A DNA stretch of 30,602 nucleotides from assembly GCA_015501055.1 (NCBI GenBank), contig JADNYV010000416.1, positions 1-30,602 of the forward strand, given 5' to 3'. The position numbers and the translations under genes were made by a program. Every line of letters begins with the position of its first letter. Positions within the stretch are counted from its first letter, which is position 1. Positions 4,321 to 24,818 of the stretch are shown in pieces. The notes under the pieces are model-generated. The model worked only from the letters and a program-made list of their open reading frames with translations, was not told the DNA's origin and made no database searches. This stretch comes from Mucidula mucida. Its lineage: Eukaryota; Basidiomycota; Agaricomycetes; Agaricales; Physalacriaceae.

Positions 4321-4937
4321 AACCCGTAGCACAGTCGCATATATATGCGCATACCGTATGCGCCGGCATATGTGCATATGGCGAGAAAGTCGACTTCGGA
4401 GTTCCAAAGTGAGATCCCGAGACTTGCCCGAGACGAACCTTGACCCTGGTCGGGATCGATGCGCTACGGCAAGCTGCTCAACGTCGGACAAGGCGTTATT
4501 CTCGTAGATTCAGTGAGTTATGTTCTTATGATCATCTACTATGTGATGTTACTTGTGTTCATTGAAGCGGGAAAGTTAAAAGAACATTTTGAAGTAGTAT
4601 ACAGCTCCATACATTAATTCTACTTGCTACAATGGGCAAAGAGTTGGTGCTACAAGATTGCTTGCCATTCAAGACTGACAAAATTGAGCAGATACTAACA
4701 AGAAACATCAGAGAGACACCAAGGACACTACGCCGCCACTCAACGCCACGCTTGGAGGCCGCCCCGAGGGCGCGATCAGAGGCGGCAACGTGTTCGCGGA
4801 GATTCTAATCGAAATTTGATGGCAAAATTGCTGGTATATGCAGGCGCATACGGTGCATATCGGATGAACGCCGTATATGCAGTTCCTGACCCTATATGTG
4901 CGCATATCTGCATACGTATGCGACTGTTCTACGGGTT
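4321..4937. mobile_element. Candidate MITE-like element with terminal inverted repeats
   Basis: The ends 4321-4341 and 4917-4937 are inverted copies matching at 20 of 21 positions (AACCCGTAG, then C or A, then ACAGTCGCATA). A second inverted pair lies inside: 4354-4371 against 4836-4853, 17 of 18 matching (CCGTATGCGCC, then G or T, then GCATAT). Both ends are full of short palindromes of the type TATATGCGCATA, GCATACGTATGC and GCATATGTGCATATG. No convincing ORF lies inside. No clear target-site duplication was seen. It fits a non-autonomous foldback or MITE element, but I do not recognise the family. It sits between the ligase promoter and the 3' end of the RNA-binding gene. Confidence 0.5.
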
Positions 4938-5444
4938 CGACATTGACGAAACCAGTTTCGATTGTGATTCCAGATGTGATCTTGATGATGATCAATTATT
5001 CAAGCAAGGCTCACCACTCTTGCCACCCGGGCTATCAATGCAGGATTCGAGGAAAACATCTAGTCCAGGATTTCAAGTACATGCTCTATATCCCGGTCAC
5101 TCATCTGGGCGTCAATTCAATAAAGTAATACCTGACTGCTATTCCTTCTGCCGTCCGAATTCCTATATGCATCACGGAAAATATTCATTTTGAGGTCAAT
5201 ACCTAACACACACACCAGATCAAGTAAGGCAGGCAGGCCAAATTCAACAACAACATAAATAGAACCTGCCTGAAGAAACGCCACAGGCCGTTCAATGAGA
5301 ATCTGCGTAAAAGAATGGCTGACATGGATCAAATCCCAGGGAACTGGACAGTCAAACGAATTGCATAGCATATCTGTTCTTGCAAAAGAAGTTTTAGTAT
5401 AACTCGAGAGCGATCGACTCCAAAGGGTATCGTCCGTCGACAGT
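4938..5444. other. Intergenic stretch, no gene seen
   Basis: About 500 bp between the inverted-repeat element and the stop codon of the RNA-binding protein gene. It would include that gene's 3' UTR. Open frames here have no recognisable similarity and look like chance. No tRNA or repeat was seen. Confidence 0.5.
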
Positions 5445-7677
5445 TCATTGGTGAGCCTGCATAATGGCATCCGAGATGAAGATAGCCGACACTTGGTTGC
5501 CGCCAAACCAACGACCATTGAGACCCTGTACGGCTTCTTTAGCAGACTCCACAGTGTCGAACTTGACATAAATTTCGCCCTAGCGCACGTCATTTGAATT
5601 TCCATGAACCAGAGATATATACACGAACCTGCGACTCTTTCTCGACCTTGATGGCGAGGACTTTACCGTACTTGGTGGAACATTCGTTCCTAACTTCTTC
5701 AGCAAGTTCCTTGTCCCAATTTGGCTCTGTTTCTCTGAAAAAATCTCAATGAGGAACGACTGGAGCAAGCTGATAAGTTGACGAACTCTTCAGGGTTGAA
5801 CATATCTTTGAGAAGAACTGAGCGTGATTGCATAGATTGAGGTATGTTCGGGCGCGCGCTGTCGGAATATCAGTAGACGTTTGATGCGGAGGGGGGGGAG
5901 ACATACACTGGTTCGGGGAGAGTGAATGCAGGTTCAGTTCTAGCAAGTTTCTGCATTAGCGCTTGACGGGAAGCTGCGTTCAAGTTACCGCCTAGTGAAA
6001 TTGAATCAGTTGGTTGACAGCGACGAGGAAGGAAAGGATCCGCGTACCACCCGAATCTTCGAGGGAATCTTGCGTCGTGTATCTGACAGTGCCCTTTTCA
6101 TGGACAGTATTGACACGTAGCTGTTGATGTATTAGAATTGCGATATGGAAGACTCGCCAGCAACTTGCCTGTCTGCCTGCAAGTTCGAAGCCTTCCATCT
6201 GCTCAAGAGCCATTCTCGCGTCTTCCGCGCGTTTGTACCTAGGAGCAGTATAGGACAGGTGATACAGACAGGACATCAACATACTGTACAAATGCATATC
6301 CCTTGCTGCGACCAGTCATTGGATCGCGGTGAAGATCTACAAACTCAAGTTCGCCAAAGGGCTCAAACACCTGTTTGATGTCTGATTCCGTGAGATTAAA
6401 GTGCAACGATCCGACATAAAGCCTGAAGATCATGAATTAGTATACCACTTTAGGTGAAGGGAAAAACATACTGCATAGCGCCGTGAGGTGCGCTAACACC
6501 CGGCGGCAAGTTCAAATTACTGATGAGGAAAATCAGAAACTAAGCTAGGGATAACCCGAATGTCTTACCCATCACCGGGATGAAGTCGGTTTCGTTCAGA
6601 TTCGGTTAATTGGACAAGAATGGGGAGACCCATGACGACAGTTCCAGAGAGATTCAACGCCTTTTCTACCAGGTCAACAGTCCGGAACTCGACATAACCA
6701 ATACTGAAGAAAATAAATCTTAATTTGCTTAAGGCAGGTATGTGCGCACCCTTTAGAACGGCGCGAAAGTCTGTCCGTGACAATTCTAGAGTCCATGACT
6801 GTGTTATCGCCGAGTTTATCTTCGAAAAAGTAACCTAAATCTCTGGCGGTCAGCCTGGCAGCCAGCTGCGATACGAATACCGATCGGGCTTCGGAGTCGT
6901 CTTCTTTTGGTTCGTCGGGATTGTAAGGCTCCGGCTCCTCTACAGGTTCCTCGAACGCAGGAGAGTTGCGTCTTCAAAATGCTCTGTTAACAAAAGACTG
7001 ATTAGAAAAGCTGAAAATACGCACTTGGGCGGCGGCGGTGGCGGTGGCAATGGTGGACTGCGACGACGAGGAGAGTCCTCGTAAGGGCGGCGACTGTCCC
7101 TCCGACGACGGTCATCATCGCGAGGAGGGCGGGAGCTTCGGTCTCCGTTCTTTTGCTCTGACGAACGGTCACGGCCAGAGGTCTTGCTAACGGGGCTGTC
7201 TCGGGGATTGGGGGGCGGAGAGGTCGTTCTCATTCTTTTAGGTCGCTCTTCTCCCTCTGGAGCATCAGCCTCGTCGCGCTTCCTGCGACGATCACGATCC
7301 TCGCGGTCTCTGTCTCGGCGACGCTCTCGGCTGTCGCCTCTATCCCTTTTTCTCTCGCTACGGTGGCTGTCGCGTCTGTGATCCCTGTCCCGGTATTTAT
7401 CGCGGGAGCGGTCTCTGTCCTTGTCTCTGTAGCGGTCTCTATCACCTCTGTCCCGACTACGGCGACGAGGCTCGTCATCACGCCGCCTTTCGCGTCGGTC
7501 CCTATCCCTTGAGTTTGACCTGTGGGATCGTTTTGTGCGCAAAGTATCGGTGGAATGATCACGAGCCCTTGAAATTGCTCAATGAGAAAGGCAGTAAATT
7601 CTTAAATGGCAGAGCACATACGACTTTGGAGGCGCAGACTCTCTGTCAACCTCCATTTTGCTGTTTGGGGATGACAT
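5445..7677 (-). CDS. RBM39: SR-rich RNA-binding splicing factor, RBM39/Rsd1 (CC1-like) family
   Basis: Nuclear splicing factor, expected to act in 3' splice-site recognition with U2AF-type proteins. The short exon 1 (7622-7677) encodes MSSPNSKMEVDRESAPPKS; a 102-bp intron joins it in frame to an exon rich in RD, RS and ER dipeptides, followed by a Pro run. RRM1 has RSVFVSQLAARLTARDLGYF and KGIGYVEFRTVD. RRM2 has LYVGSLHFNLTESDIKQVF (RNP2) and KGYAFVQY (RNP1). A linker ending VLLKDMFNPEE leads to the third, U2AF-homology-motif RRM: NWDKELAEEV, GKVLAIKVEKESQ, GEIYVKF and GLNGRWFGGNQVSAIFISD. The stop is at 5445-5447. This domain order is that of RBM39/CAPER and S. pombe Rsd1. All splices checked keep frame, including the GTATGT donor after PEPV. 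The start at 7677 was chosen over the non-ATG frames near 7542. Confidence 0.9.
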
Positions 7678-7938
7678 GGCGGTTCGAAGAGAAGCTGTAC
7701 CAAACACGTGTAAATAACCGCCACGCCAACTGTCACTTGCCTTTTCAAGATGACTTTCATTGCAACATGATTACTTATTTGTATGCTCGTTTCTGCACGT
7801 CTAATGGACTTGGACTGACTCTGAGAACTGTAATCCGGCTATTCTCGCACTCCAAAATCCGGATCGGCAGAGGCGGTCCGGACGCATGACCGTTTGTCCA
7901 TCTGGTTGCTCAGACTCTGTTGGCTCTTCTTCTCCATC
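7678..7938. promoter_or_regulatory. Divergent promoter region, RBM39-like / SDR
   Basis: The 261 bp between two divergent start codons must hold both promoters and 5' UTRs. I see no clear TATA box or repeat in it. Confidence 0.4.
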
Positions 7939-8967
7939 ATGGCTTTCCCCCTAGCATTGGATAAAGTAGTCGTTATTACTGGCGCTTCTCGAGGAATCGG
8001 TCGCGGCTGGTGAGCTTGATCGGAACGATAACTCCAAACTTGATTTGACGCGTGCCCTCCAAGCGCTTTGGAGTTTGCCAAACATGGCGCTTCGGGATTA
8101 GTCCTTCATTACTACGGAGACGCAGAGACTACCAAAGAGATCGAGTCATTGAAAGCTGAGTTAGAGAACGACACGACCAAGGTCGTTTCGGTAGCAGGCG
8201 ACATTGCTGATCCAGAAACATCTACCAAGGTTAGAGGTCTGTTCGTGCTATAATGCTGTACCAAGTTGTTCCCAGATCGTAAAGGCTGGTGTTGATGCCT
8301 TTGGGCGCATTGACGTCTTAGTGTCAAATGCTGGAATCTGTCCGTTCGCCGAATTTCTTACTATGCCGCTCGGGACATGGGAGCGCACTCGCCAAGTAAA
8401 TTTGGACGGAACGTTCTACATCACTCAAGGTGTGTAGTATGTACATGATATCTTTGCAGTACTTAGCGCGAACCAGCCGTGGCCAACCAAATGAAGGACC
8501 AGACACCTCAAGGAGGCGCTATCATCGGTGTATCTTCCATCTCAGCTTTCTTCGGCGGTGCACAACAATGGTTAGTGTTCTCACTAAGCTTTCCGTGACT
8601 ACCGCCGACTTCGACTCAGTCACTATACACCTACGAAGGCCGGCATACTTTCTTTAATGCAAAGTTGTGCAGTGGCTCTGGGAAAGTATAACATCAGAGC
8701 CAATGCCGTCTTGCCTGGAACAATCGCGACAGATATCAACAAGGAAGACTTGTCTGATGAGGAGAAACGCGACTATATGACAAAACGCACCTGCCTCGGT
8801 CGTCTAGGAGGTATGCGATGAGCGCGCTCTCTTCTCATCGTCTGACATGTTCTGCAGCTCCCGATGATCTTGCCGGGCCGGTGGTGTTTTTGGCAAGTCA
8901 CCTGGCCAAGTATATCACGGGGACGTCTTTACTTGTTGACGGTGGCCTTGCTGTTAACCTCCAATGA
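7939..8967 (+). CDS. LRA1: Short-chain dehydrogenase, probably L-rhamnose 1-dehydrogenase
   Basis: NAD(P)-dependent oxidoreductase of the classical SDR fold. Six exons (7939-8009, 8064-8229, 8276-8429, 8477-8570, 8620-8810, 8858-8967) sum to 786 nt, an intact 261-aa frame. Cofactor motif TGASRGIG is at residues 14-21; VSNAG takes the place of NNAG; the active site has GVSSIS and YTPTKAG (Tyr and Lys of the YxxxK motif); LPGTIATDI and a C-terminal LLVDGGLAVNLQ follow. The segments HYTPTKAGILSLMQS and VDGGL..NLQ closely recall fungal L-rhamnose 1-dehydrogenase, the first step of the non-phosphorylating L-rhamnose pathway, but the substrate is inferred and no other pathway gene is in the window. 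The part from 8516 on is duplicated at 18988-19439. Confidence 0.82.
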
Positions 8968-9045
8968 AGTGTATATAACAACTTTAGAAGAGATTCTTGA
9001 CTGAAGTTCGTAAAAACAGTGTACATTTTGCCCGAAGTGGCATCA

Positions 9046-9709
9046 TCATACGGACATAACCGACAATGGTTGTCCATCCACCTCAACAGGTTCCGCGGAA
9101 ACCAAGACAGTAACCCAGTGTGCCCAGTTCGTAGTCGACGGATTCTTCCAAGCATGCAAACCGCCTTTCATTACGACAACGTCCCCTGGCGTTTTGATAT
9201 GCGTCTCTGACCCATCCTCCATCATAAGAATCAGCTCCCCTTCAACTAGACGATGTTAGTCCAGTGGCAATATCGATAACGTTGCCTACCGAGGATGTTG
9301 TAATCCTGGGATGAGGAGCGATGCTTCACGTTAATCAGATAATGGTGCTGACATGGCTCGCCACGACTGACCATGGGGGTGACTCCTCCGGGACACAGAA
9401 GAGTCGCTCCGGTATTTGCTCCTGGTCCCTTTGGAAGCAGATTCAGATTGTTCGGATCTAGCTCTCTTTCAGCCCCATCTATACTTCAATCGAGATCAAT
9501 ATGGTCAATAGAGGAGAAAGAGCTACAAGTACCCACGAGGAGTTATTGTCTTTGGTCGGTAGACCGTCTTCAATAATGTAGATGGTCGCTACTTTCGCTC
9601 CCAATGACGGGATATCGTGCCACTGCTGTTTGCTATCGATTTGTATGCATGCTTGCCCATCTTCGTTGTGAGAAGTAACGATACGACGAGTGTTGGGTGG
9701 GGTAGACAT
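9046..9709 (-). CDS. Small cupin-fold protein, copy 1
   Basis: Single-domain cupin of 166 aa. Four exons (9709-9537, 9465-9372, 9323-9290, 9245-9046) sum to 501 nt in frame. The N-terminus MSTPPNTRRIVTSHNEDG is followed by IPSLGAKVATIYIIEDG. The core reads GVTPMHRSSSQDYNILVEGE (cupin motif 1: one His, a Glu after the Gly-x-x-x-x-x-Gly turn), then ELILMMEDGS, TPGDVVVMKGGLHAWKNPS (motif 2, with the second His) and ending in LSVMSV. This layout is common in fungal small cupins of unknown substrate. A TATATAA box (9785-9791 read on the minus strand) lies about 75 bp upstream of the ATG. A second, apparently identical gene is at 19518-20181. The substrate is unknown. Confidence 0.8.
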
Positions 9710-9864
9710 GATGGTTTGTTCACAAGTGGAAATCAGAGTCTCGGGCCGTTGCCCGTGGAGGTGTATGAGCTGGCAGTGGATCTTATATAAAGCAGATAAA
9801 GTACAACAAGCCCTCGACGCGAAGTCTACCGTACACGTACTCATGGTGCAGTATCTTTAACTTA

Positions 9865-10110
9865 TTAGACAAGGCCACATGAATTCAAAGACGCGGACGT
9901 ACAATAATAATACTCGTCGATGAGCGGTATCCAGTCCTTCAACAACGCACCGAAGAGACCAATCAGCGGAGTGTGCATAGTACGGTCTGCGACAGCGTCC
10001 AATTTGGGTCTAAAAGAGATATGAGGCAAATTTGCGAAACAAACGTTTGACATACCTTGTATATGTTTTCCAAATGGAATCGCGAAGTAGATACCAAAGC
10101 ATATCTCTAT
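9865..10110 (-). pseudogene. PEX16: 3' fragment of PEX16, left copy
   Basis: Encodes only the last two coding segments of PEX16: ..DRDMLWYLLRDSIWKTYTR, an intron, then PKLDAVADRT through GALLKDWIPLIDEYYYC to the stop at 9865-9867. It is identical to the intact gene at 20337-20582 and is cut off at 10110, where the retroelement 5' end begins. With no start or N-terminus it cannot make Pex16. Confidence 0.93.
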
Positions 10111-10112
10111 TC

Positions 10113-10257
10113 CGCGATAAGTCATCGCGAGGTACGAGCGGTAAACTTATCTTAGGATAAGATAGTGCCGGGCCATCTAGGGCCGTAGTCATCTACTTCA
10201 TACATGTACATACAACACGACAGCTTTACAATCCTTGGGGATACTACCTGTCGTGTT
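10113..10257 (+). other. Retroelement 5' leader with two short hairpins
   Basis: At the very 5' end CGCGAT (10113-10118) and ATCGCG (10124-10129) form a 6-bp stem with a 5-nt loop. Further in, AACACGACAG (10214-10223) and CTGTCGTGTT (10248-10257) form a perfect 10-bp stem with a 24-nt loop. Both are kept in the right arm. Their role is unknown; they could mark the element terminus or leader RNA structure. Confidence 0.45.
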
Positions 10258-10452
10258 CTCCATCGTCGCGGTTACGCCTTCTGATCCTCGTTCTTTCCTG
10301 AAATTTCTTTTCTGTCCTTTCCTTCCTTGTTCAGCTGTGCTTTTCGTAAGGCAGTTGATTCAGGCTTCTATTCGTTAGGGCTTGCTATCGGTTGCCCTTC
10401 GTGGGGACTGATCCTTTTTTTTTCTGGACGACAAAATTTTCGCCTCGTCCCG

Positions 10453-11808
10453 ATGTCCGTAACTCAAGGCTCCCAGCAGCAAAATCCCGCCCCGCCGCCA
10501 GCACCGCCGCTATCGCCGCGCGTTCGTCGGACTCACACGATGCAGGCAATATGCGATATGTTCAAGAAACTCGATGTCACGCTCCGCTTGTCGAAGAACG
10601 CGGATATCGAGGTGGAAAATTTGGCGCGGGAGCAGAAGACGATGGATTTCACCATGGGTGTGGCTGGTGCGACGAGTGCTGGGTCACCTGCAGCTTCGTA
10701 CATTTCATTCACGAAGGTGGAGGAGGCCGCGTTCTGTGAAACTGACTTCCTCTCCCACGTCAAGAAGGTCCCTACTTACGTCTGGAATGCGGTATCACTG
10801 TGGAAAGCGAAGGAGAAGAAGAAGAAGGAGGACGCGAAGGCGGTCGCCGATGCACCTAAGGATAACAAGTGCATGGACACGACGATGGAGGTGGCCAGGT
10901 TGCCCGGAGCTAAGATCGACGTCAAATTTCATCAGGTTTTATATGATACTGAAGAAATCACTCCTCTCCCACAGTCTGTCTTCTCTAACGCCGCGCTGCG
11001 CTACATCTGGGAGCACGCTGCTACGCTTCCCACCATCAAGGCCAATCCTCAGCCCGGCTCTGTGGCCCGCCGTTATATTCTCAATGTCGATGAGCTTGTG
11101 AAGCAATTCGGCGACGACGTTCGCCCGTCGTACGGTCAGTACACTGAGTGCGCCCAAAATCGCCTCAGATTCTGCCGTTCAAGAGACAAGGCGGGCCCAA
11201 AGGGTCCTTGGGCGCTTCGCTGGGCTCAGCATTATTCATTCTTTGATGGGCTCACAGAAAAGATTGAGGAGTATGACGCTTGGGCTCCGGTGGAAGCAAA
11301 GCTGCGTCGCGAGTATGCAAGCATGCCGACGGCTTACGATGGCGCGTTCTATGAGCGTGAGTATTCGAATGCGTTGATTGCATTCAATGCTAGGAAGCAG
11401 GCAGAGCAGTTGGTTGCAGAGGCGTTGAAGAGAGAACGGGCTGACGTTGCGTCACGGTCGGGCAAGAATTCCTCCGCGCGAGGCTCCACTGATGGAGCCT
11501 CGCGCGGTTCCTTTTGGGGTACACGCCGTGGTGAAGGCGAGGGAATCGCCCCCGTCTGTCTCATCTGCGGGGAGAAGGGACACGTATCCACTAATCACGC
11601 ACAGAAGTCGAACGCAAGGCCAATCTGGGGCATCCTACGTGACAAGAACATCGTCCATCCGACCTCGAGAGTCACCATCTGCTCATACTTCAATATCTAT
11701 GGCTCCGGCAAGTGCAACCACAGCAATGCTGACCGCCTCGACGTCTGCGCATGGTGCGGCTCTCGGGACCATCATGCCTTCGCCTACTCCTGTCGCCCCC
11801 GCACCTGA
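10453..11808 (+). CDS. Retroelement Gag-like protein, left copy (intact)
   Basis: 451 aa from the ATG at 10453, the first good start in a longer open frame. N-terminus is Gln/Pro-rich (GSQQQNPAPPPAPPLSP). A Lys-rich stretch EKKKKEDAKA lies in the first third. At about residue 369 there is a zinc knuckle CLICGEKGHVSTNH (CX2CX4HX4H, CCHH not the usual CCHC), followed by a second Cys/His block with CSYFNIYGSGKCNH and CAWCGSRDHHAF. Such Gag proteins package the element RNA. The stop overlaps the RT ORF start by 35 nt in another frame. The right copy is frameshifted. Confidence 0.82.
   Translation: MSVTQGSQQQNPAPPPAPPLSPRVRRTHTMQAICDMFKKLDVTLRLSKNADIEVENLAREQKTMDFTMGVAGATSAGSPAASYISFTKVEEAAFCETDFLSHVKKVPTYVWNAVSLWKAKEKKKKEDAKAVADAPKDNKCMDTTMEVARLPGAKIDVKFHQVLYDTEEITPLPQSVFSNAALRYIWEHAATLPTIKANPQPGSVARRYILNVDELVKQFGDDVRPSYGQYTECAQNRLRFCRSRDKAGPKGPWALRWAQHYSFFDGLTEKIEEYDAWAPVEAKLRREYASMPTAYDGAFYEREYSNALIAFNARKQAEQLVAEALKRERADVASRSGKNSSARGSTDGASRGSFWGTRRGEGEGIAPVCLICGEKGHVSTNHAQKSNARPIWGILRDKNIVHPTSRVTICSYFNIYGSGKCNHSNADRLDVCAWCGSRDHHAFAYSCRPRT
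11474..11507 (+). other. Perfect 15-bp hairpin inside the Gag ORF
   Basis: The 15 nt at 11474-11488 are the exact reverse complement of 11493-11507, with a CTGA loop at 11489-11492. The stem is GC-rich. It lies in codons for ARGSTDGASRG, just before the zinc knuckle. The same hairpin is unchanged in the right arm (17397-17430). Confidence 0.8.
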
Positions 11809-13906
11809 GAGCGGACTCTCCTCCACTCGTCCATTCCTTGCTTACACGAACTTTGCTGATACCATTCACCGACGATTGCCCCTCGCTCATTCTTCTGACT
11901 CTGATAATGAAATCTTCTCAAGAATTATAACGCCCTACGACGCAGATGCTTTCGAACGCTTACTTGATCAACATAATTTAACATCCAGATATCCTCTTCT
12001 CTGCTCTAATCTTCGCAATGGATTTCCCCTTGGCCGCATGCCAATCCTCACTTCCACGATTATTATTCCGAACCATCCATCCTGCATCACCTACAAGCAC
12101 GCGGTCAACAAGTATATCACAGACGAACTCGCGGCAAATCGCATCTCTGGTCCTTTCTCGCGTTCGGACGTGGAGCGGATCCTGCGTGGTCCGTTTCACT
12201 GTTCTCCTCTGATTGTCGCGCCGGCGTCGCAAGGCCCGGGTTTGCCTGACAAGTTGCGCGTGTGCCGCCACTTGTCGAAAAGTTGTCATGAAGCTCTGGC
12301 AGTGAACGATTTCATCGACAAGGAGGACTTCCCGACGCACTTTGACATGGCCCCTCGTGTTGAACAAATTGTGAGTAGTCTCTTTCGTGTTTAAGGGTAT
12401 ATAGCCTTTATTTCTTTATTTCCTTCTTCTTTTCGGGGGTGTGCTTCAGTGAAGTAGCTTGTTTTTTCCTCCTCGCAGGCGTGCTCGGTTGAGTCGTCAT
12501 TGCTCCTACTCGCGGGCGTCCTCGGTTGAGGCGTCATGCTGCTCCCCGTGTGGGATGCAACCGAGCACTCCTGCGTGAGGCGTCTCATTCCTTCCTTCGA
12601 GCTGCGTCTCGCTTCCTCCTGTCGTGCCAGTTGGCTGACATTTCCTCTTCAGGTGGCGAATGCGCCTCCCGGTACTCAAGCATGTACCAAGGATATTGCG
12701 AAATTCCATCGCACCTGCCCGGTCCTTCCTGACCATAAACCCTTCTTGGTGTTCCAGGGTGATTATTTGCGTAGTGGTGCATTCTCCTCTTCTAACAACC
12801 TTTTGATAAGGCGACCCGGAGGACTTTTACATAGAGCACACTTTCCCGTTTGGTGCTGCATCTGCTAGCAGCAATGCCGGCATGATTGCGAACGCTCTGA
12901 TGCATGTATGGGAGGCACAGGGTGTTGACGTCGGACTCAAGTATGAGGACGACATCAAGAATGTCCGTTACCCACCCGTCTTGGCCCGGTCATAGCTGGC
13001 GTGTTTTGCTACGACTTCGATTATGAGGATATGATGGCCATGGTCGCGCCGCTCCTCACGCCATGGAACGATAAGGGTGATACAGACTTTGTCTTCCTGA
13101 CTACTTTCATTGGCTACCTCTGGCACTTCGCGGAGCGTTGGGTGGGGTTTACCGAGGAGAAACGCATGAAATTCCTGCAGCGCGCTGAGGTTTTCGCTGC
13201 CAGTTTTGCGGGTACTTCTTGCGCACTCGAGGAAGTCAACAAGATCCACGGCTCTCTTTGCCACGTCGCCTTTGTTCACACAATCGGCACTGCATATCTC
13301 TCCTCATTCTCCAACTTCGCCGCCTCTTTTAAGGGCAACGAGTTCGTTCGTCGACACCCTCCGCCATCAGTTATATCCGATGTCAAGTGGTGGGTGCAGA
13401 AGCTTTCTGTACCTAACTTCACACGTCCGCTGAAGGTACTGGGTCTGCCTAAGAACTTGCGTCTCTTTGCGGATGCCTCGACGTTGTGGGGAATTGGGAT
13501 CCTCATTGGCGGCAAATGGGCCGCATTTCGTCTTGTTCCAAACTGGAAGGAGTTGGCACCAGGTCGGGACATTGGTTGGCTCGAGACGATAGCCATCGAG
13601 ATTCTACTCCTCTTCCTTCAGGCCATGAAGGTCACCGACGCTCATCTCCTAATTCACTCCGATAACCAAGGGTCTATTGGATCTTTTCGAAAGGGCCGTT
13701 GCCCCAATCCGTTCATTAACCTCTCTATTCGTCGCTCCTTCACAACTCTCGTCGCAACCGGCATCTCTCCTGCCTACGAATATATTGAAACTTCTCTCAA
13801 TCCGGCTGACCCCATCTCGCGCGGGGAATTTGGTCCGCCGGAGTTGAAACTACGCACTCGCATTGTGCTCCCAGAGGAGCTTCATGGACTCCTTGTCCAT
13901 GTCTAG
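11774..13906 (+). CDS. Retroelement RT-RNase H, left copy (spliced; frameshifted)
   Basis: Starts at ATG 11774 inside the Gag 3' end. Exons: 11774-12370, 12653-12758, 12811-13906. RT fingers include VNKYITDELAANRISGPFS and LRVCRHLSKS. Splicing out 12371-12652 joins VEQIV to ANAPPGTQACTKDIAKFHRT, which holds the catalytic Asp of motif A. Splicing out 12759-12810 gives FQGDPEDFYIEHTFPFGAAS. Motif C is KYEDDIKNVR. RNase H follows: LFADASTLWGIGI (Asp), ETIAIEILL (Glu), LIHSDNQGSIGSF (Asp) and SLNPADPISRG (Asp), so all four acidic residues are present. The left copy lacks one G at 12971/12972 that the right copy has, so it is broken right after the YEDD motif. Confidence 0.82.
12371..12652 (+). 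other. Spliceosomal-type intron inside the retroelement pol gene
   Basis: GTGAGT donor at 12371 and CTTCAG acceptor ending 12652; removal restores a continuous RT domain. At 282 bp it is far longer than the host introns here. It holds two imperfect tandem copies of about 37 bp (about 12478-12550, each with CTCGGTTGAG) and a perfect 11-bp inverted repeat, GTGCTCGGTTG at 12481-12491 and CAACCGAGCAC at 12558-12568. Confidence 0.65.
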
Positions 13907-14180
13907 TTCTCCGTTTAGTTTTGCGGCGCCGTTCGCCGCGGATGGTAGTGAGGGCGATGACTTTGAAGGGTCGTCGCCTCCGCGACTCACTTCCACCCAA
14001 ATCCTCTCACCTCCTTCAGCCTCTCCACCTTCATTCCCATCTGTATTCAGCTTTGACTTCCGCTCATCGCCACCCGCCGCTGCACCGGCTCCTCCTTGTG
14101 GAGATCCATCTTTTAGATTTAAAACTTCTCCCTTTGATCTCTCATCCGACGACCCACCGCCTACCACCCAGCGGTGGTGA
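13884..14180 (+). pseudogene. Start of tyrosine recombinase ORF, left copy, truncated
   Basis: Begins at ATG 13884 (MDSLSMSSSPFSF), overlapping the end of the RT-RNase H ORF by 23 nt in another frame. It is Ser/Pro-rich low-complexity sequence up to SSDDPPPTT, then stops four codons past the inverted-repeat boundary at 14167. No recombinase domain remains. Confidence 0.75.
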
Positions 14181-14735
14181 CCATACCACGGCGCGCCGTT
14201 CACGTCATGCCACGCCTTGATACCCGACAACCAATTCTTCACCGCGTTACCCCCAACTTGGCCCTTGTACTGACCGATGAAGGCGCACAAAAGTGCGTAG
14301 GATGCCGGCATGCGTTGAGACTCGGAGATATTGTGCAGGTTGCAGAACTGATTGAATCGCAGGATACCCGCTGCGTAAGTCCCCTTCGTACTTGGTGCGT
14401 ATGCATTGCGCAGCGACATGAAAGCGAGCTCGACTAGTTCCGGAGGAAGTTCGTCGTCCAACGCCTTCTTGTGGATCTGGGCGTATTCGGATGTCCATCC
14501 AAATAGGCGATCCGGTGCCAGGATGTGAGGTCGAAGTTCATTGTTGGCGATGCGGTCCGCCTGACGCGGCTCGCGAGCTGTCTTTGTGAGAGGCCGTGGA
14601 ATGAGTGCCGCGCTGCGAGAGGATGTCGGTTGCGCAACTTGAGGAGCTGAAAAGAGAGGGAGAGTGCTGGATGATGGGGCCGATGATGCAGAAGTAGGGA
14701 GAGATGGAAAGAATGATACAGGCGGAGAAGTTGAT
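14168..14735 (-). other. Unique spacer of the large inverted repeat
   Basis: 568 bp present once, between the two arms. It is not foreign DNA: it is the next part of the right retroelement copy (recombinase core-binding domain). The palindrome therefore looks like a fold-back in which the right copy extends 568 bp further into the element than the left. Confidence 0.88.
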
Positions 14736-14996
14736 GTGGTAGGCGGTGGGTCGTCGGATGAGAGATCAAAGGGAGAAGTTTTAAATCTAAAAGATGGATC
14801 TCCACGAGGAGGAGCCGGTGCAGCGGCGGGTGGCGATGAGCGGAAGTCAAAGCTGAATACAGATGGGAATGAAGGTGGAGAGGCTGAAGGAGGTGAGAGG
14901 ATTTGGGTGGAAGTGAGTCGCGGAGGCGACGACCCTTCAAAGTCATCGCCCTCACTACCATCCGCGGCGAACGGCGCCGCAAAACTAAACGGAGAA

Positions 14997-17130
14997 CTAG
15001 ACATGGACAAGGAGTCCATGAAGCTCCTCTGGGAGCACAATGCGAGTGCGTAGTTTCAACTCCGGCGGACCAAATTCCCCGCGCGAGATGGGGTCAGCCG
15101 GATTGAGAGAAGTTTCAATATATTCGTAGGCAGGAGAGATGCCGGTTGCGACGAGAGTTGTGAAGGAGCGACGAATAGAGAGGTTAATGAACGGATTGGG
15201 GCAACGGCCCTTTCGAAAAGATCCAATAGACCCTTGGTTATCGGAGTGAATTAGGAGATGAGCGTCGGTGACCTTCATGGCCTGAAGGAAGAGGAGTAGA
15301 ATCTCGATGGCTATCGTCTCGAGCCAACCAATGTCCCGACCTGGTGCCAACTCCTTCCAGTTTGGAACAAGACGAAATGCGGCCCATTTGCCGCCAATGA
15401 GGATCCCAATTCCCCACAACGTCGAGGCATCCGCAAAGAGACGCAAGTTCTTAGGCAGACCCAGTACCTTCAGCGGACGTGTGAAGTTAGGTACAGAAAG
15501 CTTCTGCACCCACCACTTGACATCGGATATAACTGATGGCGGAGGGTGTCGACGAACGAACTCGTTGCCCTTAAAAGAGGCGGCGAAGTTGGAGAATGAG
15601 GAGAGATATGCAGTGCCGATTGTGTGAACAAAGGCGACGTGGCAAAGAGAGCCGTGGATCTTGTTGACTTCCTCGAGTGCGCAAGAAGTACCCGCAAAAC
15701 TGGCAGCGAAAACCTCAGCGCGCTGCAGGAATTTCATGCGTTTCTCCTCGGTAAACCCCACCCAACGCTCCGCGAAGTGCCAGAGGTAGCCAATGAAAGT
15801 AGTCAGGAAGACAAAGTCTGTATCACCCTTATCGTTCCATGGCGTGAGGAGCGGCGCGACCATGGCCATCATATCCTCATAATCGAAGTCGTAGCAAAAC
15901 ACGCCAGCTATGACCGGGCCAAGACGGGTGGCGTAACGGACATTCTTGATGTCGTCCTCATACTTGAGTCCGACGTCAACACCCTGTGCCTCCCATACAT
16001 GCATCAGAGCGTTCGCAATCATGCCGGCATTGCTGCTAGCAGATGCAGCACCAAACGGGAAAGTGTGCTCTATGTAAAAGTCCTCCGGGTCGCCTTATCA
16101 AAAGGTTGTTAGAAGAGGAGAATGCACCACTACGCAAATAATCACCCTGGAACACCAAGAAGGGTTTATGGTCAGGAAGGACCGGGCAGGTGCGATGGAA
16201 TTTCGCAATATCCTTGGTACATGCTTGAGTACCGGGAGGCGCATTCGCCACCTGAAGAGGAAATGTCAGCCAACTGGCACGACAGGAGGAAGCGAGACGC
16301 AGCTCGAAGGAAGGAATGAGACGCCTCACGCAGGAGTGCTCGGTTGCATCCCACACGGGGAGCAGCATGACGCCTCAACCGAGGACGCCCGCGAGTAGGA
16401 GCAATGACGACTCAACCGAGCACGCCTGCGAGGAGGAAAAAACAAGCTACTTCACTGAAGCACACCCCCGAAAAGAAGAAGGAAATAAAGAAATAAAGGC
16501 TATATACCCTTAAACACGAAAGAGACTACTCACAATTTGTTCAACACGAGGGGCCATGTCAAAGTGCGTCGGGAAGTCCTCCTTGTCGATGAAATCGTTC
16601 ACTGCCAGAGCTTCATGACAACTTTTCGACAAGTGGCGGCACACGCGCAACTTGTCAGGCAAACCCGGGCCTTGCGACGCCGGCGCGACAATCAGAGGAG
16701 AACAGTGAAACGGACCACGCAGGATCCGCTCCACGTCCGAACGCGAGAAAGGACCAGAGATGCGATTTGCCGCGAGTTCGTCTGTGATATACTTGTTGAC
16801 CGCGTGCTTGTAGGTGATGCAGGATGGATGGTTCGGAATAATAATCGTGGAAGTGAGGATTGGCATGCGGCCAAGGGGAAATCCATTGCGAAGATTAGAG
16901 CAGAGAAGAGGATATCTGGATGTTAAATTATGTTGATCAAGTAAGCGTTCGAAAGCATCTGCGTCGTAGGGCGTTATAATTCTTGAGAAGATTTCATTAT
17001 CAGAGTCAGAAGAATGAGCGAGGGGCAATCGTCGGTGAATGGTATCAGCAAAGTTCGTGTAAGCAAGGAATGGACGAGTGGAGGAGAGTCCGCTCTCAGG
17101 TGCGGGGGCGACAGGAGTAGGCGAAGGCAT
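14997..17130 (-). CDS. Retroelement RT-RNase H, right copy (frame intact after splicing)
   Basis: Same protein as the left copy. The last exon is open from the DFYIEHTFPFGAAS block through KYEDDIKNVRYATRLGPV and on to the RNase H end ELHGLLVHV. It carries the G that the left copy lacks, so after removal of introns (16252-16533 and 16093-16145, mapped from the left copy) it should be translatable. The recombinase partner needed for integration is truncated. Confidence 0.78.
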
Positions 17131-18450
17131 GATGGTCCCGAGAGCCGCACCATGCGCAGACGTCGAGGCGGTCAGCATTGCTGTGGTTGCACTTGCCGGA
17201 GCCATAGATATTGAAGTATGAGCAGATGGTGACTCTCGAGGTCGGATGGACGATGTTCTTGTCACGTAGGATGCCCCAGATTGGCCTTGCGTTCGACTTC
17301 TGTGCGTGATTAGTGGATACGTGTCCCTTCTCCCCGCAGATGAGACAGACGGGGGCGATTCCCTCGCCTTCACCACGGCGTGTACCCCAAAAGGAACCGC
17401 GCGAGGCTCCATCAGTGGAGCCTCGCGCGGAGGAATTCTTGCCCGACCGTGACGCAACGTCAGCCCGTTCTCTCTTCAACGCCTCTGCAACCAACTGCTC
17501 TGCCTGCTTCCTAGCATTGAATGCAATCAACGCATTCGAATACTCACGCTCATAGAACGCGCCATCGTAAGCCGTCGGCATGCTTGCATACTCGCGACGC
17601 AGCTTTGCTTCCACCGGAGCCCAAGCGTCATACTCCTCAATCTTTCTGTGAGCCCATCAAAGAATGAATAATGCTGAGCCCAGCGAAGCGCCCAAGGACC
17701 CTTTGGGCCCGCCTTGTCTCTTGAACGGCAGAATCTGAGGCGATTTTGGGCGCACTCAGTGTACTGACCGTACGACGGGCGAACGTCGTCGCCGAATTGC
17801 TTCACAAGCTCATCGACATTGAGAATATAACGGCGGGCCACAGAGCCGGGCTGAGGATTGGCCTTGATGGTGGGAAGCGTAGCAGCGTGCTCCCAGATGT
17901 AGCGCAGCGCGGCGTTAGAGAAGACAGACTGTGGGAGAGGAGTGATTTCTTCAGTATCATATAAAACCTGATGAAATTTGACGTCGATCTTAGCTCCGGG
18001 CAACCTGGCCACCTCCATCGTCGTGTCCATGCACTTGTTATCCTTAGGTGCATCGGCGACCGCCTTTGCGTCCTCCTTCTTCTTCTTCTCCTTCGCTTTC
18101 CACAGTGATACCGCATTCCAGACGTAAGTAGGGACCTTCTTGACGTGGGAGAGGAAGTCAGTTTCACAGAACGCGGCCTCCTCCACCTTCGTGAATGAAA
18201 TGTACGAAGCTGCAGGTGACCCAGCACTCGTCACACCAGCCACACCCATGGTGAAATCCATCGTCTTCTGCTCCCGCGCCAAATTTTCCACCTCGATATC
18301 CGCGTTCTTCGACAAGCGGAGCGTGACATCGAGTTTCTTGAACATATCGCATATTGCCTGCGTCGTGTGAGTCCGACGAACGCGCGGCGATAGCGGCGGT
18401 GCTGGCGGCGGGGCGGGATTTTGCTGCTGGGAGCCTTGAGTTACGGACAT
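17096..18450 (-). pseudogene. Retroelement Gag-like protein, right copy (frameshifted)
   Basis: Identical to the left Gag except for three substitutions and one missing A in the AAAA run (17643-17645 here, AAAA at about 11257-11260 in the left copy). The frame changes after DGLTE and stops at 17527, before the zinc knuckle. One substitution changes Met to Thr in THTMQAI and another Ala to Val in VAGATS; the third is silent. Confidence 0.8.
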
Positions 18451-18792
18451 CGGGACGAGGCGAAAATTTTGTCGTCCAGAAAAAAAAAGGATCAGTCCCC
18501 ACGAAGGGCAACCGATAGCAAGCCCTAACGAATAGAAGCCTGAATCAACTGCCTTACGAAAAGCACAGCTGAACAAGGAAGGAAAGGACAGAAAAGAAAT
18601 TTCAGGAAAGAACGAGGATCAGAAGGCGTAACCGCGACGATGGAGAACACGACAGGTAGTATCCCCAAGGATTGTAAAGCTGTCGTGTTGTATGTACATG
18701 TATGAAGTAGATGACTACGGCCCTAGATGGCCCGGCACTATCTTATCCTAAGATAAGTTTACCGCTCGTACCTCGCGATGACTTATCGCGGA

Positions 18793-18988
18793 ATAGAGAT
18801 ATGCTTTGGTATCTACTTCGCGATTCCATTTGGAAAACATATACAAGGTATGTCAAACGTTTGTTTCGCAAATTTGCCTCATATCTCTTTTAGACCCAAA
18901 TTGGACGCTGTCGCAGACCGTACTATGCACACTCCGCTGATTGGTCTCTTCGGTGCGTTGTTGAAGGACTGGATACCGCTCATCGACG
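18793..18988 (+). pseudogene. PEX16: Inverted PEX16 fragment (third copy of this piece)
   Basis: The 196 bp repeat, inverted, positions 9915-10110: RDMLWYLLRDSIWKTYTR, the intron, then coding sequence to KDWIPLID. At 18988 it switches directly to SDR sequence with about 1 bp of shared sequence. The last codons and stop of PEX16 are missing. Confidence 0.92.
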
Positions 18989-19439
18989 CGCTATCATCGG
19001 TGTATCTTCCATCTCAGCTTTCTTCGGCGGTGCACAACAATGGTTAGTGTTCTCACTAAGCTTTCCGTGACTACCGCCGACTTCGACTCAGTCACTATAC
19101 ACCTACGAAGGCCGGCATACTTTCTTTAATGCAAAGTTGTGCAGTGGCTCTGGGAAAGTATAACATCAGAGCCAATGCCGTCTTGCCTGGAACAATCGCG
19201 ACAGATATCAACAAGGAAGACTTGTCTGATGAGGAGAAACGCGACTATATGACAAAACGCACCTGCCTCGGTCGTCTAGGAGGTATGCGATGAGCGCGCT
19301 CTCTTCTCATCGTCTGACATGTTCTGCAGCTCCCGATGATCTTGCCGGGCCGGTGGTGTTTTTGGCAAGTCACCTGGCCAAGTATATCACGGGGACGTCT
19401 TTACTTGTTGACGGTGGCCTTGCTGTTAACCTCCAATGA
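18988..19439 (+). pseudogene. 3' fragment of the L-rhamnose dehydrogenase-like SDR gene
   Basis: Copy of 8516-8967, from AIIGVSS to the stop, keeping three exons and two introns. It has the YxxxK motif but no cofactor-binding half, start codon or promoter, so it is not a working gene. Confidence 0.92.
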
Positions 19440-19517
19440 AGTGTATATAACAACTTTAGAAGAGATTCTTGACTGAAGTTCGTAAAAACAGTGTACATTT
19501 TGCCCGAAGTGGCATCA

Positions 19518-20181
19518 TCATACGGACATAACCGACAATGGTTGTCCATCCACCTCAACAGGTTCCGCGGAAACCAAGACAGTAACCCAGTGTGCCCAGT
19601 TCGTAGTCGACGGATTCTTCCAAGCATGCAAACCGCCTTTCATTACGACAACGTCCCCTGGCGTTTTGATATGCGTCTCTGACCCATCCTCCATCATAAG
19701 AATCAGCTCCCCTTCAACTAGACGATGTTAGTCCAGTGGCAATATCGATAACGTTGCCTACCGAGGATGTTGTAATCCTGGGATGAGGAGCGATGCTTCA
19801 CGTTAATCAGATAATGGTGCTGACATGGCTCGCCACGACTGACCATGGGGGTGACTCCTCCGGGACACAGAAGAGTCGCTCCGGTATTTGCTCCTGGTCC
19901 CTTTGGAAGCAGATTCAGATTGTTCGGATCTAGCTCTCTTTCAGCCCCATCTATACTTCAATCGAGATCAATATGGTCAATAGAGGAGAAAGAGCTACAA
20001 GTACCCACGAGGAGTTATTGTCTTTGGTCGGTAGACCGTCTTCAATAATGTAGATGGTCGCTACTTTCGCTCCCAATGACGGGATATCGTGCCACTGCTG
20101 TTTGCTATCGATTTGTATGCATGCTTGCCCATCTTCGTTGTGAGAAGTAACGATACGACGAGTGTTGGGTGGGGTAGACAT
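19518..20181 (-). CDS. Small cupin-fold protein, copy 2
   Basis: Apparently identical to the gene at 9046-9709, including the four exons, the two His-bearing cupin motifs and the TATATAA box upstream. Both copies keep the full gap to the PEX16 stop, so both should carry the same promoter. If the duplication is real the cell has two doses of this gene. Confidence 0.8.
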
Positions 20182-20336
20182 GATGGTTTGTTCACAAGTG
20201 GAAATCAGAGTCTCGGGCCGTTGCCCGTGGAGGTGTATGAGCTGGCAGTGGATCTTATATAAAGCAGATAAAGTACAACAAGCCCTCGACGCGAAGTCTA
20301 CCGTACACGTACTCATGGTGCAGTATCTTTAACTTA

Positions 20337-21695
20337 TTAGACAAGGCCACATGAATTCAAAGACGCGGACGTACAATAATAATACTCGTCGATGAGCGGT
20401 ATCCAGTCCTTCAACAACGCACCGAAGAGACCAATCAGCGGAGTGTGCATAGTACGGTCTGCGACAGCGTCCAATTTGGGTCTAAAAGAGATATGAGGCA
20501 AATTTGCGAAACAAACGTTTGACATACCTTGTATATGTTTTCCAAATGGAATCGCGAAGTAGATACCAAAGCATATCTCTATCTCTCCGCGCATATTCTG
20601 CGCGTTCCAATTGGGCAGAGGAGGGAGGGCTGCGACGCAGACTTCGCGAAACCAGCTCCAAGGCAAGCGCAGTAGATAACGCCTTACTCTTATGATTCTT
20701 GGAAAACAATAAACCAGCTGATGCGGATTGATCAGAAGGCTAAGCTTGACAAGAGAAAGAGATTCTTACCATAGACCAAAGGCCGGAGAATGTAAATGAT
20801 TTCTGCAGCCCATTCTTGGGGAGAGGACATAGATCTAACCAGGGTTAGTGATGGTTTTACTGAATCGGTAGTTAAAGCTTTGGGGAGCAAGTAGTCTTCC
20901 ACTGCTGTATTCGAGCGCGTGGGGGGAGGAGATATTAACGGATGTGGTAAGGGTGCATGGTTGTTCTTCAAGTGATCGGGAGTGGCTGAAGGGGAGACGG
21001 ATGGGCTGGAAGGCGCGAGAGTTGGAGAAGATGCATTTGAAGGCGGAACTTGGGGTACTGAAGTAGGATCAAACTCTCGTTCTGGGATTGGAGGCGAAAG
21101 CAGAGGTTTTCGTGTGATCCGTATCATAAGAAGGCGAAGGACAGCTCTACGCTTTTAATCAGGATGTGAACGAGGCAGAGATATGAAGCGAGACGCACTT
21201 GATGACCTCGAGGAGGAGAATGCCTCGCCATCTACTTTGATTCGATACCTTGCGGCGTAGGCCCATTTCCACGACTAACTCGGTGAAACGGATGAGTTCA
21301 AGCGAGCGGGCGGCCCATTTGTAAACGTCGCTCTTAACGGACCACGCCCTGGTGAAACGAGAGTGTAGTGATGGAGGTATGAGAGGTCTGTATCTGGGAT
21401 TCGATTGGACGACCTTGGCCAGCAGTGTATCATGATACATGCTCATCACGTTGAGCAACGTCGAGACTACGTGGCGATTAGGACACGCGGTAGAATACAG
21501 GAATTGAACGCACGAGCCTCGGACGCCAGCTCTGCGTCCTTGAACCGGCCTGGCAGAAACCATGTTACCTTGAAGGCAATAAGTACAAGTCGTGCGGAAG
21601 TGAGAAAACCAAGATACCGAGCGCAATGTCGACTCCAACGACGAGATGGTCGACACGTTTTTGATGAGAAAAGATTCGTACGCAGCGACAGCCAT
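20337..21695 (-). CDS. PEX16: Peroxisomal membrane biogenesis protein Pex16 (intact copy)
   Basis: Peroxin acting in early peroxisome membrane assembly and membrane-protein import. About 370 aa from ATG 21695 (MAVAAYESFLIKNVSTISSL). Exons splice in frame through LRSVTWFLPGRFKDAELASE, ALSTLLNVMSMYHDTLLAKV, SDVYKWAARSLELIRFTELV and RWRGILLLEVIKAVLRLL. Then comes a long Ser/Pro-rich insert (SPTLAPSSPSVSPSATPDH), EWAAEIIYILRPLVYAGLL, ALALELVSRSLRR, and the C-terminal block DRDMLWYLLRDSIWKTYTR - PKLDAVADRT - IGLFGALLKDWIPLIDEYYY. This matches the Pex16 family along its length. It is the only complete copy: two other fragments of its 3' end lie at 9865-10110 and 18793-18988. The retroelement junction in the left copy corresponds to the bond at 20582/20583. 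Confidence 0.9.
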
Positions 21696-22072
21696 GCTGG
21701 CGCGCTGGAGGTGGGCAAGAGAGAAAGACCTGGAGAGCCTGGGGTAGTGACCGAGTAACACATGCTTGCCGGTAATCGGCTGAGCGATCCATTCAATAGA
21801 CGGCGTTCTTTGCAAAGGATCTGCAATGCTAGCATGCTATTTGTATGTCAAGTAACAGACAGTAGTAATCGCAGTCAAAGTGTTCAAATTTGTTGCAAGC
21901 TTTTCAAGGCTTTCTCAAGGCACCTCAGGTTCAAACTCGCTTCGTGCCTCGAGGCAGAAAAGTGACTGATATCGTCAATTCGTTACGGGACAACGTCCAC
22001 CACGAGGAGCTCGCCTGCATATAAATCGAGCGACCCACTGTCCGCCCATCCGTTTCGTATGAGTTCATTCAT
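21696..22072. promoter_or_regulatory. Divergent promoter region, PEX16 / 22073 gene
   Basis: 377 bp between two divergent ATGs. A TATAAA at 22020-22025 sits about 48 bp upstream of the ATG at 22073 and is a plausible core promoter for that gene. Nothing clear was seen for PEX16. Confidence 0.4.
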
Positions 22073-23730
22073 ATGCACCAGTCCCCAGTCCATTTCCCGC
22101 CTGATTACTACCGTGTCAGCCCTGTCCGCGGCCAACTAGAGGCCTATGATCCTTCATCGCCTCGTAACTGGAGATACATCCAGACCACAGACACACCTAA
22201 TGAGCTCCGCGTGAGTCATAGCCCTCGCCAGATTTTACGTCCAGCTTACGCTCGGCGCGCAACAGGTACTTTTACCGCCTGCAGTATCGTCCCAGTACGA
22301 GCAGCTGCTGAAGCTTGAGCTCGCCGAACTTTCTAAACGCCCTTCGGTGCAATGGGAGCGCATTCTCGAAATACGACATCTCAAGGATCGCATGATTAGA
22401 AAATGTCAGCGCCTCTCCCGCATCCTCCCTCCCAAACGCATCGGCCGGGGCGAATCTTTCGTTTTCCAAAGCCTTATTGCGCCAGAGGATTTCCGCCTCA
22501 AGGAAATGGAAAACTGGTTCCAATTGGAGGCCCGCTCTGCAAAGAGCATTCCGGCTCCCGTACCACTGAAGAGCAAGCCTGTTCTCCAGCGGCCGGTAAT
22601 TCCCCTCCAGAAAGTCGTTGCTCGCAATACATGTTGCGCTCGCTGCTCGCGATCAACTGAACCTGCGATTGTTTTGCCTATGCCAGTACCGTCTCCGGGG
22701 CAGCCTGTCTCATCCAAAGGTGCTCACCCTGAGGATCATCCGCCCAGCCTGCATGCTGCAAAGCGTTCACCCTCGCCTGGCCGTTCGCACGCGCCGGAGC
22801 GGAGACCGCACGTATCGGAACACTCTCATGCTGAAGAGGTCGAGGATGACATTGAACTTACGCGTCCTCCAGACGCGCCAGACGGATCGCGCTCCCCAAG
22901 TCCCGACCCACTTCCATATCGGGCACCCTCTCCTGAACTAGCAGCACTCACACCAATACCAGAAGAAGAATCTGAATCACCATTTCCTTCCACGGAAACC
23001 CCTCCTCCCGATTCTCCGACTGTTACGCAAAATCATGACGCGGAGCAGAACGAGAGCGGTTCCTCGTCCGATTCTTCCACTATCGCGCCGACGCCACCAG
23101 CATCTCCTCCTCCCCTCCCACACCTCTTGCGCATATCAGACCCCAACCTTCTCAAAGATCTCATGGAAACTGACATAATTCCCGCACCAAAGCCTATCCC
23201 AGTTCCAATAGAACCTCCACCACCCGTAAAACCTGCTTTGGCTCGCCGCAGAAGCTGCATCAAGCGTTCCAGCGGTGATTCGGTGAAGACTGTTTCTTGG
23301 GCTGACGATAGAGATATATCGGAGCAGATCGCGAAGATAGCTTTCTTCACTACTGAGCCGAGAGTCGATGAGCCAGGTTTGTAACCGCTCTTATGTGGCG
23401 TCTCATTGGTTCTCATGTCACCCTACAGAGGAAGACGACGATGACGCGATGTCTGGTATCGACTCGCTCCACCTTGAGCTCAAGAAGAGCTTGGAAGAAG
23501 CGCAAGCTGATCCATCACATTTCGAACTAGTGGAATCGCTCATCGCAGAACAAAAGGAGAAGATACGCCATGGCATACATGACACTCATCATCTTCGGAC
23601 GTCGACTTTACTGGAGAAAGGTAGAAACTCAGAACTCCACCTTGGAACGTCTCTCATCTATAACTCCTCAGTGTTAGAAGTTGACGACGATGATTCAAAA
23701 TTGTCCGACTCTGAAGACGAGGACATATGA
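22073..23730 (+). CDS. Uncharacterised acidic, Pro/Ser-rich protein with a possible PP1-docking motif
   Basis: Not recognised. Three exons (22073-22210, 22266-23376, 23429-23730) sum to 1551 nt, an intact 516-aa frame. The N-terminal part is folded-looking and charged (WRYIQTTDTPNELR, YEQLLKLELAELSKRPSVQW, RHLKDRMIRKCQRLSRILPP). The middle is disordered, with many SP and PP repeats and the acidic PIPEEESES. Near the end of exon 2, RRRSCIKR is followed by SVKTVSWADDRD; KTVSW fits the RVxF-type docking consensus for protein phosphatase 1. The C-terminus has a short helix-like part (LHLELKKSLEEA) and ends in an acidic tail, SKLSDSEDEDI. Probably a conserved basidiomycete protein; function unknown. 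Confidence 0.75.
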
Positions 23731-23818
23731 CAACTGTACGAAGGAAATGATCAAACTACGCCGGATGGAAGGATATATGTATACTATTTAACAACATGTG
23801 TCAAGTAATCACTAATTC

Positions 23819-24818
23819 TTATTCTTTATTGGAAGCCTCGCCATCTGAATCTTCATCGTCGCTGTCACCGTAGGCCGCAAGACCACCAAGACCCTTGCTT
23901 GCCGCTTCAAGTTCTTCGGCCTGCTTCAAGTCACGACCCGTCGACGCTCGGATTATTCTCCATCGGCGCTTCCATCGCCCTTTGAGAAATGCAAACGCCG
24001 GTTGTTTCTCACCAAAGTCCACTAGAATCTTCATCTCCATCTGGGTGGGGTTTGGTGCCAGCAGAATGAGCTTTGCCGTCTTCTCCATAACTTGTTTGAC
24101 AGAATCATCCGGCTAAGACATACCTGAGCTTTAAGTGAAGGGAGTCTATCTGCAACTCACCTCTTCGTCGCTCCCACCCCAGACGTCTTCTTCTTCTTCT
24201 TCTTCTTCTTCTTCTTCAATGCGTGCACGTAAACGCGCCTCCTGCGCTTGGCTCAATAAACGGCGACGTTTTTCCCGTCGATAATCATCTGTTTCTTCCG
24301 GCGAGAAGAAGAACGTGTCTTCAGAGTCTGATGGAAGATCTGACCAACCGGCGGGTGACTCTGAACGAGCATCCATGCCTTTCGGATTGTTTACGTGAAG
24401 CGAATCCAGGAGTAGACGGACATCATATCTGGAAAAGTCAAGTTAAGTACGAAACAGGACATGAAAAGCAACTATAGGTACAATTATGTCAGTATGCAAG
24501 CCGTGAGAGGTTCGACAAGCTACTACGAGTGTATTCTTATGTCTTTTCAGAACAAACATACCTGTCTACCCAGACTTCCGGAACCATTTCAGACCCAACG
24601 TTGTGGTCTACATAACCAATTCGTATGAGGGCGCACCCTGGCTTTCCGATCGAAGTGGACTCTAGAGACGCGGCAAATGCAGCACCTCGAGAACCACGGA
24701 CAACATCAGCCTCGTGGGCTTGAAAGTACAGTGCACCATGCGCGACGCGCCTGCTATCATCGCCAAGCGCTGCAGATTCCGTCCTGGCGCGGTTCTTGCG
24801 TTTCCGCGATGGTGACAT
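23819..24818 (-). CDS. SWAP/SFSWAP-like splicing regulator (DRY_EERY N-terminus plus SURP-like module)
   Basis: Three exons (24818-24562, 24428-24161, 24112-23819) sum to 819 nt, an intact 272-aa frame. N-terminus is basic (MSPSRKRKNRAR). The block GYVDHNVGSEMVPEVWVDRY-DVRLLLDSL, with the DRYDVR signature, matches the suppressor-of-white-apricot N-terminal (DRY_EERY) domain. Then comes EETDDYRREKRRRLLSQAQE, a run of about ten Glu encoded by a GAA/TTC trinucleotide repeat (24186-24216), and a SURP-like module VMEKTAKLILLAPNPTQMEM - KQPAFAFLKGRWKRRW. It ends in an acidic tail. Family members regulate alternative splicing. It is short and has one SURP-like module, where animal SFSWAP has two and an RS domain; the SURP call is the weaker part. 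Confidence 0.65.

Follow-up and report, generated by a model that had tools for sequence, protein, structure and literature searches.

The closest described relatives of the locus reported here are duplication–inverted triplication–duplication (DUP-TRP/INV-DUP) rearrangements, in which dosage runs 1-2-3-2-1 and duplicated sequence flanks the inverted triplicated segment on both sides (PMC10766186). Small inverted triplications of yeast rad27 mutants, as presented in PMC13334657, have the same duplicated/inverted/duplicated arrangement, with medians of 160 bp for the inverted segment and 30 bp for the spacer, and joints of 6 bp; the word retrotransposon is absent from the main text of that paper. 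In tumours, L1 insertions are described as bridging sister chromatids head-to-head, i.e. in inverted orientation (PMC7058536). The stretch considered here is an entire 30,602-bp contig of the mushroom Mucidula mucida (JADNYV010000416.1), referred to as the window or, by our contig handle, C401; the assembly to which it belongs comprises 59.9 Mb in 1047 contigs. Within it, the 3′ end of the gene PEX16 and its neighbours recur in direct, inverted and direct order around a truncated, putative Ngaro-type retroelement, an arrangement that may record one-sided integration of that element.

The direct repeat measures 1595 bp, with positions 8516–10110 recurring letter for letter at 18988–20582 (offset 10472 bp). 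The innermost 196 bp of this host block (9915–10110) are present a third time, exactly and in inverted orientation, at 18793–18988 (minus strand), forming the middle copy of the triplicated segment. This inverted copy forms the outermost part of one arm of a larger palindrome, whose arms of ~4.25 kb each (9915–14167 and 14736–18988) are 99.86% identical (4 mismatches and 2 gap openings in 4254 columns) and are separated by a loop of 568 bp. Given their length, the repeats are not a product of chance. No inverted self-match of at least 50 bp was found by blastn, at the same setting, in five other stretches totalling 117,968 bases (40 kb of C1, 18 kb of C697, 30 kb of C438, 20 kb of C149 and 10 kb of C448). 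An initial annotation of the window had reported both direct copies with their constant offset, the inverted 196 bp, the direct–inverted–direct order, about 1 bp of shared sequence at 18988 and a recombinase-type retroelement in the middle, and each of these is borne out.

Read along the contig, host block copy 1 (8516–10110, plus strand) passes into the element at exactly its left end, TCCGCG, and the forward arm then continues from element position 1 to ~4057 (10111–14167, plus). There, the sequence turns onto the other strand at element position ~4626, runs back through the single-copy loop (14168–14735, minus; element ~4058–4626, recognised from opposite-strand matches to C149, C438 and C697) and the inverted element arm (14736–18792, minus; positions ~4057 to 1), and enters host 10110–9915. 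From host 9915 it jumps to host 8516, from which block copy 3 (18988–20582, plus) leads across an empty target site (20582/20583). At the first turn-round (14166–14168) 2 bp, AC (14166–14167), are common to both sides, and at the second (18987–18989), where inverted host 9915 meets forward host 8516, a single G (18988) is shared. Both turn-rounds jump ahead in the direction of travel, by 568 and 1398 bp, respectively. Host dosage is consequently 1-2-3-1, with two copies of 8516–9914, three of 9915–10110 and one past 10110, whilst the first ~4057 bp of the element are present twice (inverted), the next ~569 bp once and the remainder not at all.

In segment order, in scant microhomology and in having inverted segments separated by single-copy stretches, this arrangement resembles DUP-TRP/INV-DUP and origin-dependent inverted-repeat amplification (ODIRA)-type events as these have been described (PMC10766186, PMC10766183). 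Unlike them, it has one host duplication, one turn-round placed inside a truncated retroelement and a returning copy without the element. The suggestion in the initial annotation that a DUP-TRP/INV-DUP event had taken place thus stands for the inverted middle copy of 196 bp and for the joints of 1–2 bp, but not for duplication on both sides, as 8516–9914 is duplicated and nothing to the right of 10110/20582 is. For this reason the structure is not classed with those events here, although it may work alike. Set against the yeast rad27 triplications, the 196 bp of inverted host DNA is close to the median there, whilst the distances of 568 and 1398 bp and the joints of 2 and 1 bp depart from the spacers and joints of that system. 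L1 is a target-primed element. Its fold-back inversion in tumours (PMC7058536) likewise involves a retroelement integrated aberrantly where two chromatids are joined head-to-head, but there the chromosome arm past the joint is lost, whereas C401 continues along the same chromosome and its element is putatively of the tyrosine-recombinase kind. In the openly licensed literature we found no paper linking a retrotransposon, an inverted triplication and fungi, which does not amount to absence from print.

Five copies of the element begin with TCCGCGATAAG, and do so against four different flanks, namely those in C149, C438 and C448 and that at PEX16 (C401 and C697). Because of this common start with differing flanks, the joint at 10110/10111 represents the end of the element rather than a random break, exactly as in the three other insertions (C438, C149 and C448). 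Tyrosine-recombinase integration leaves no target-site duplication. None was seen, and joining was exact, at both of the testable sites, C149 being compared with its empty allele in C367 (99%) and C438 with empty relatives in C386 and C67 (94% for the left flank, 84% for the right). A full copy of 6531 bp in C149 has split direct repeats in the order A1-pol-B1-A2-B2, with A1 (1–203) equal to A2 (5974–6176) and B1 (5652–5973) equal to B2 (6210–6531). An A-pol-B-A-B order characterises Ngaro elements (PMC3783388, PMC4157794), and the DNA inserted at PEX16 is, as judged from its C149 relative, a Ngaro-type element. With fungal Ngaro elements as described (PMC3783388) it shares this order, to judge from the C149 copy, and a putative recombinase-like frame; the PEX16 copy itself retains A1 and, from the coding region, only the left portion.

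Domain evidence for the class of the element is weak. The candidate recombinase frame matches the Pfam family Phage_integrase with an E-value of 0.022 and 15 bits, below the cut-off of 27.1, and has no near-identical match among public proteins, the best among the matches listed displaying 67% identity over 37% of the query. The frame that precedes it has 92 protein matches, one of which, in Hebeloma, bears a UniRef name that starts 'DNA breaking-rejoining en'. A zinc-knuckle Pfam match is also below cut-off (E 0.27), and no Pfam match to a reverse transcriptase or RNase H was obtained in the element frames scanned, although a YEDD-like motif can be made out by eye. Dam-type methyltransferases mark DIRS elements, and no Dam methyltransferase match was found in the 6 frames scanned, of 24 listed, for the C149 stretch, nor in the element frames scanned in the window. 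With regard to the other copies, that in C438 (C438:60744–68396) holds an insert of ~1.13 kb in B1, which is common to C697. Over its first ~4.6 kb it departs from both the inverted arm and C149 in 55 columns, 45 of which are C-to-T or G-to-A, a bias of the kind that decay resembling repeat-induced point mutation would give. The C448 copy was considered as a second one-sided insertion and rejected, as a high-copy repeat (C448:1–219) at the end of the contig interrupts it at element position 1551; this repeat has at least 41 matches among 1302 first-look candidates, several of the matches lying in pairs ~6 kb apart in the manner of long terminal repeats.

An allele without the element is found in C1, where positions 1815189–1834679 align colinearly with the window to the left and right of the site, save for 684 bp at 4264–4947. 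The empty position, 1824647/1824648, is the equivalent of both 10110/10111 and 20582/20583. Within the block C401 differs from C1 by five substitutions, and copy 1, copy 3 and the 1250-bp PEX16 flank present in C697 carry the same five of five; the first single nucleotide polymorphism (SNP) to the right of the empty joint, at 20701, also differs from C1. Copy 3 is empty, yet has the allele-specific SNPs of the filled copy 1, so that one haplotype looks both filled and empty, and a single chromosome bearing two blocks, as assembled, directly explains this double appearance. The two arms, moreover, share variants of one element copy. In 12 columns, a count that leaves out the six in which the arms differ (element positions 431, 560, 726, 1148, 2861 and 3987), both arms agree with each other and are unlike C149 and C438, 8 of the 12 being unlike C697 too. 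At position 431 the forward arm has the C697 state and the inverted arm that of C438, C149 and C448. As for the 684-bp stretch at 4264–4947, C1 has a short, different stretch in its place, and relatives at 80–95% exist over most of its length in C305, C25 and C693; it is likely a transposon polymorphism.

The counterpart of the exact left joint is missing. The right end of the element reads CTTAT, and the PEX16 side of a completed right joint would read CTCTCC, CTCTCCGCGC; contig searches of the assembly, in which the best candidates were scored, returned no such joint at the locus. Among these candidates the right flank of the site in PEX16 (20583–22600) matches only C401 and C1, and is empty in both, whilst close copies (≥98%) of element 4627–6531 occur only in C149, C438 and C697, with weaker relatives (67–75%) in C93 and C316.

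Taken together, an exact single end, no other end in the contig, a fold-back and a return to an empty site of the same haplotype fit one-sided integration repaired within one S phase. The full mechanism that we favour, tentatively and at a level just short of probable, is one-sided integration of a Ngaro-type element in PEX16, followed by fold-back synthesis and return to the empty sister chromatid. The tyrosine recombinase of the element would have linked the left end alone to PEX16, on one of the chromatids, with the right end never being joined. A growing strand would then have copied host and element DNA as far as position ~4057 and, by way of 2 bp of homology, have switched to the opposite strand ~570 bp ahead, copying back through the element and into 196 bp of host. 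A further switch, with 1 bp of homology, would have carried it to position 8516 of the still-empty sister and onwards from there, repair being completed in the same S phase, whilst the sister was still without the element.

The foremost competitor to one-sided integration is an artefact of library or assembly, in which the true allele has an ordinary Ngaro insertion (full or partial) in PEX16 or is mosaic for it, and C401 was assembled from a chimeric fold-back molecule and then run on into reads of the empty allele. We regard this as quite possible, if somewhat doubtful. Whole-genome amplification often gives inverted chimeric molecules, which are reported to make up 40–50% of reads in amplified Arabidopsis samples and 0.5% in an unamplified control (PMC6218980), and C401 is both short and noisy at its ends. 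Compared with C1, its left end has 9 small gaps, and at its right end (26670–30602) there are 18 small gap events and one substitution; from 18988 to the end, 25 substitutions are spread over 11.6 kb, with none between 25906 and 30532, and the right end is therefore of low quality and perhaps derives from the other haplotype. Mid-contig indels are, on the other hand, few, with 1 gap in 5163 columns at 4948–10110 and 0 from 18988 to 24196. An artefact would also need two separate and unlike joints in addition to a change from filled to empty, in a setting where the 118 kb compared had no other inverted repeat and no right joint of an ordinary insertion came to light. Reads flagged as fold-back artefacts turn within 200 bp and near their middle (PMC12870357), a limit that turn-rounds 568 and 1398 bp apart exceed, although chimeras formed in amplification would still be allowed.

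Errors of assembly at this very element are evident in C697, which opens on PEX16 flank (1250 bp), passes from there into the element at its left end and so repeats the left joint. Of the columns with a C401-specific state (arms agreeing, unlike C149 and C438), C697 has that state in all four that lie no further than element position 1370 and in none of the 10 beyond it, two of these 10 lying in the loop and one of the four, position 1339, being common to C448 also. Conversely, the C438-specific state (unlike C401 and C149) appears in 0 of 13 columns before ~1370 and in 19 of 41 after it, both counts leaving out columns where the arms of C401 differ. The contig then enters the right flank of C438 at 97%, and its right part belongs to that locus. 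In our view C697 was misjoined inside the repeat, and it was rejected as independent proof of a plain PEX16 insertion: it is a mosaic, following the PEX16 copy as far as element position ~1370 and resembling the C438 locus from there on. Several points tell against one-sided integration as set out above. Whilst C697 supports the left joint, it points to an assembly that errs at this element; C401 may rest on few reads, as it is short and has gaps at both ends; the arms are not identical, differing by 4 substitutions and 2 indels; and the SNPs of copy 3 could stem from polishing with reads of the filled allele. That no right joint was found is no proof, because the assembly searches score best candidates only, and the recombinase and sister-chromatid steps are fitted to the structure rather than seen in it. 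That the rearrangement is real in the chromosome seems to us somewhat the better supported possibility.

If it is real, template switching on a chromosome that already bore the insertion, with the element a mere passenger in a DUP-TRP/INV-DUP event, would account for the direct–inverted–direct order and for joints of 1–2 bp, as in human cases (PMC10766186). The origin by template switching proposed in the initial annotation is supported to this extent, but switching within one filled chromosome gives no empty third copy. With the second duplication absent too, this course would require either that an element-free template of that haplotype was used or that the element was precisely lost afterwards, and we consider it unlikely. 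Integration of a ready-made inverted dimer of complementary DNA (cDNA) would place an exact element end at the start of both arms, as observed; the inverted arm, however, extends 196 bp into the host, and the palindrome was therefore formed after joining to host DNA. The dimer was rejected for the structure as a whole, and is scarcely credible.

With respect to the host genes, copy 1 contains the 3′ part of a short-chain dehydrogenase (SDR) gene, a cupin-like gene (minus) and an orphan PEX16 3′ end (minus), as identified by identity to 18988–20582 and by Pfam on the pieces. In copy 3 the SDR is cut at 18988, and the cupin-like gene is followed by a PEX16 3′ end that runs on into 20583 without the element. 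The SDR pieces match adh_short above the Pfam cut-off, whilst the Cupin_2 match of the cupin-like gene is below it (E 0.0044). A Pex16 match on the minus strand lies to the right of the site, and the exon holding the site is also above cut-off; the last PEX16 exon scores below it. Among named proteins the PEX16 of Hymenopellis radicata is nearest, matching at 96 of 102 residues in the C-terminal part. A public protein of 221 residues is closer still, being 99% identical to the PEX16 stretch at 21159–21836, and implies that there is a second data set, for this organism or a near-identical one, in which the joints might be found. The insertion point splits the codon G|AT in a PEX16 coding exon, at the equivalent of residue 305 of 362 in H. 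radicata, and a plain insertion would therefore remove ~57 residues. In C401 the SDR is continuous in the left copy, PEX16 is continuous in the right copy and the cupin-like gene is doubled, so that the structure would leave both SDR and PEX16 intact. In the host at 20583–20591, three bases past the empty site, the sequence reads TCCGCG, the hexamer of the element's left end, which was not seen at the C149 or C438 sites.

How tyrosine-recombinase retrotransposons complete their integration is, to our knowledge, little understood. If the structure is an artefact, it is a warning that contigs folded back at retroelements can be mistaken for rearrangements of the disease type. If it is true, a single exact element end lacking its partner, together with a track of repair that finishes on an empty sister, would be the fossil of an integration intermediate. 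It would link inverted triplications, as described in human disease, in tumours and in yeast, with retroelement integration that failed in a mushroom, and would show how a gene can survive such an insertion. It is conceivable, albeit doubtful, that tyrosine-recombinase retroelements more generally can integrate one-ended, with the open end rescued by fold-back replication and a jump to the sister in the same cell cycle, giving an inverted triplication with a working target gene.

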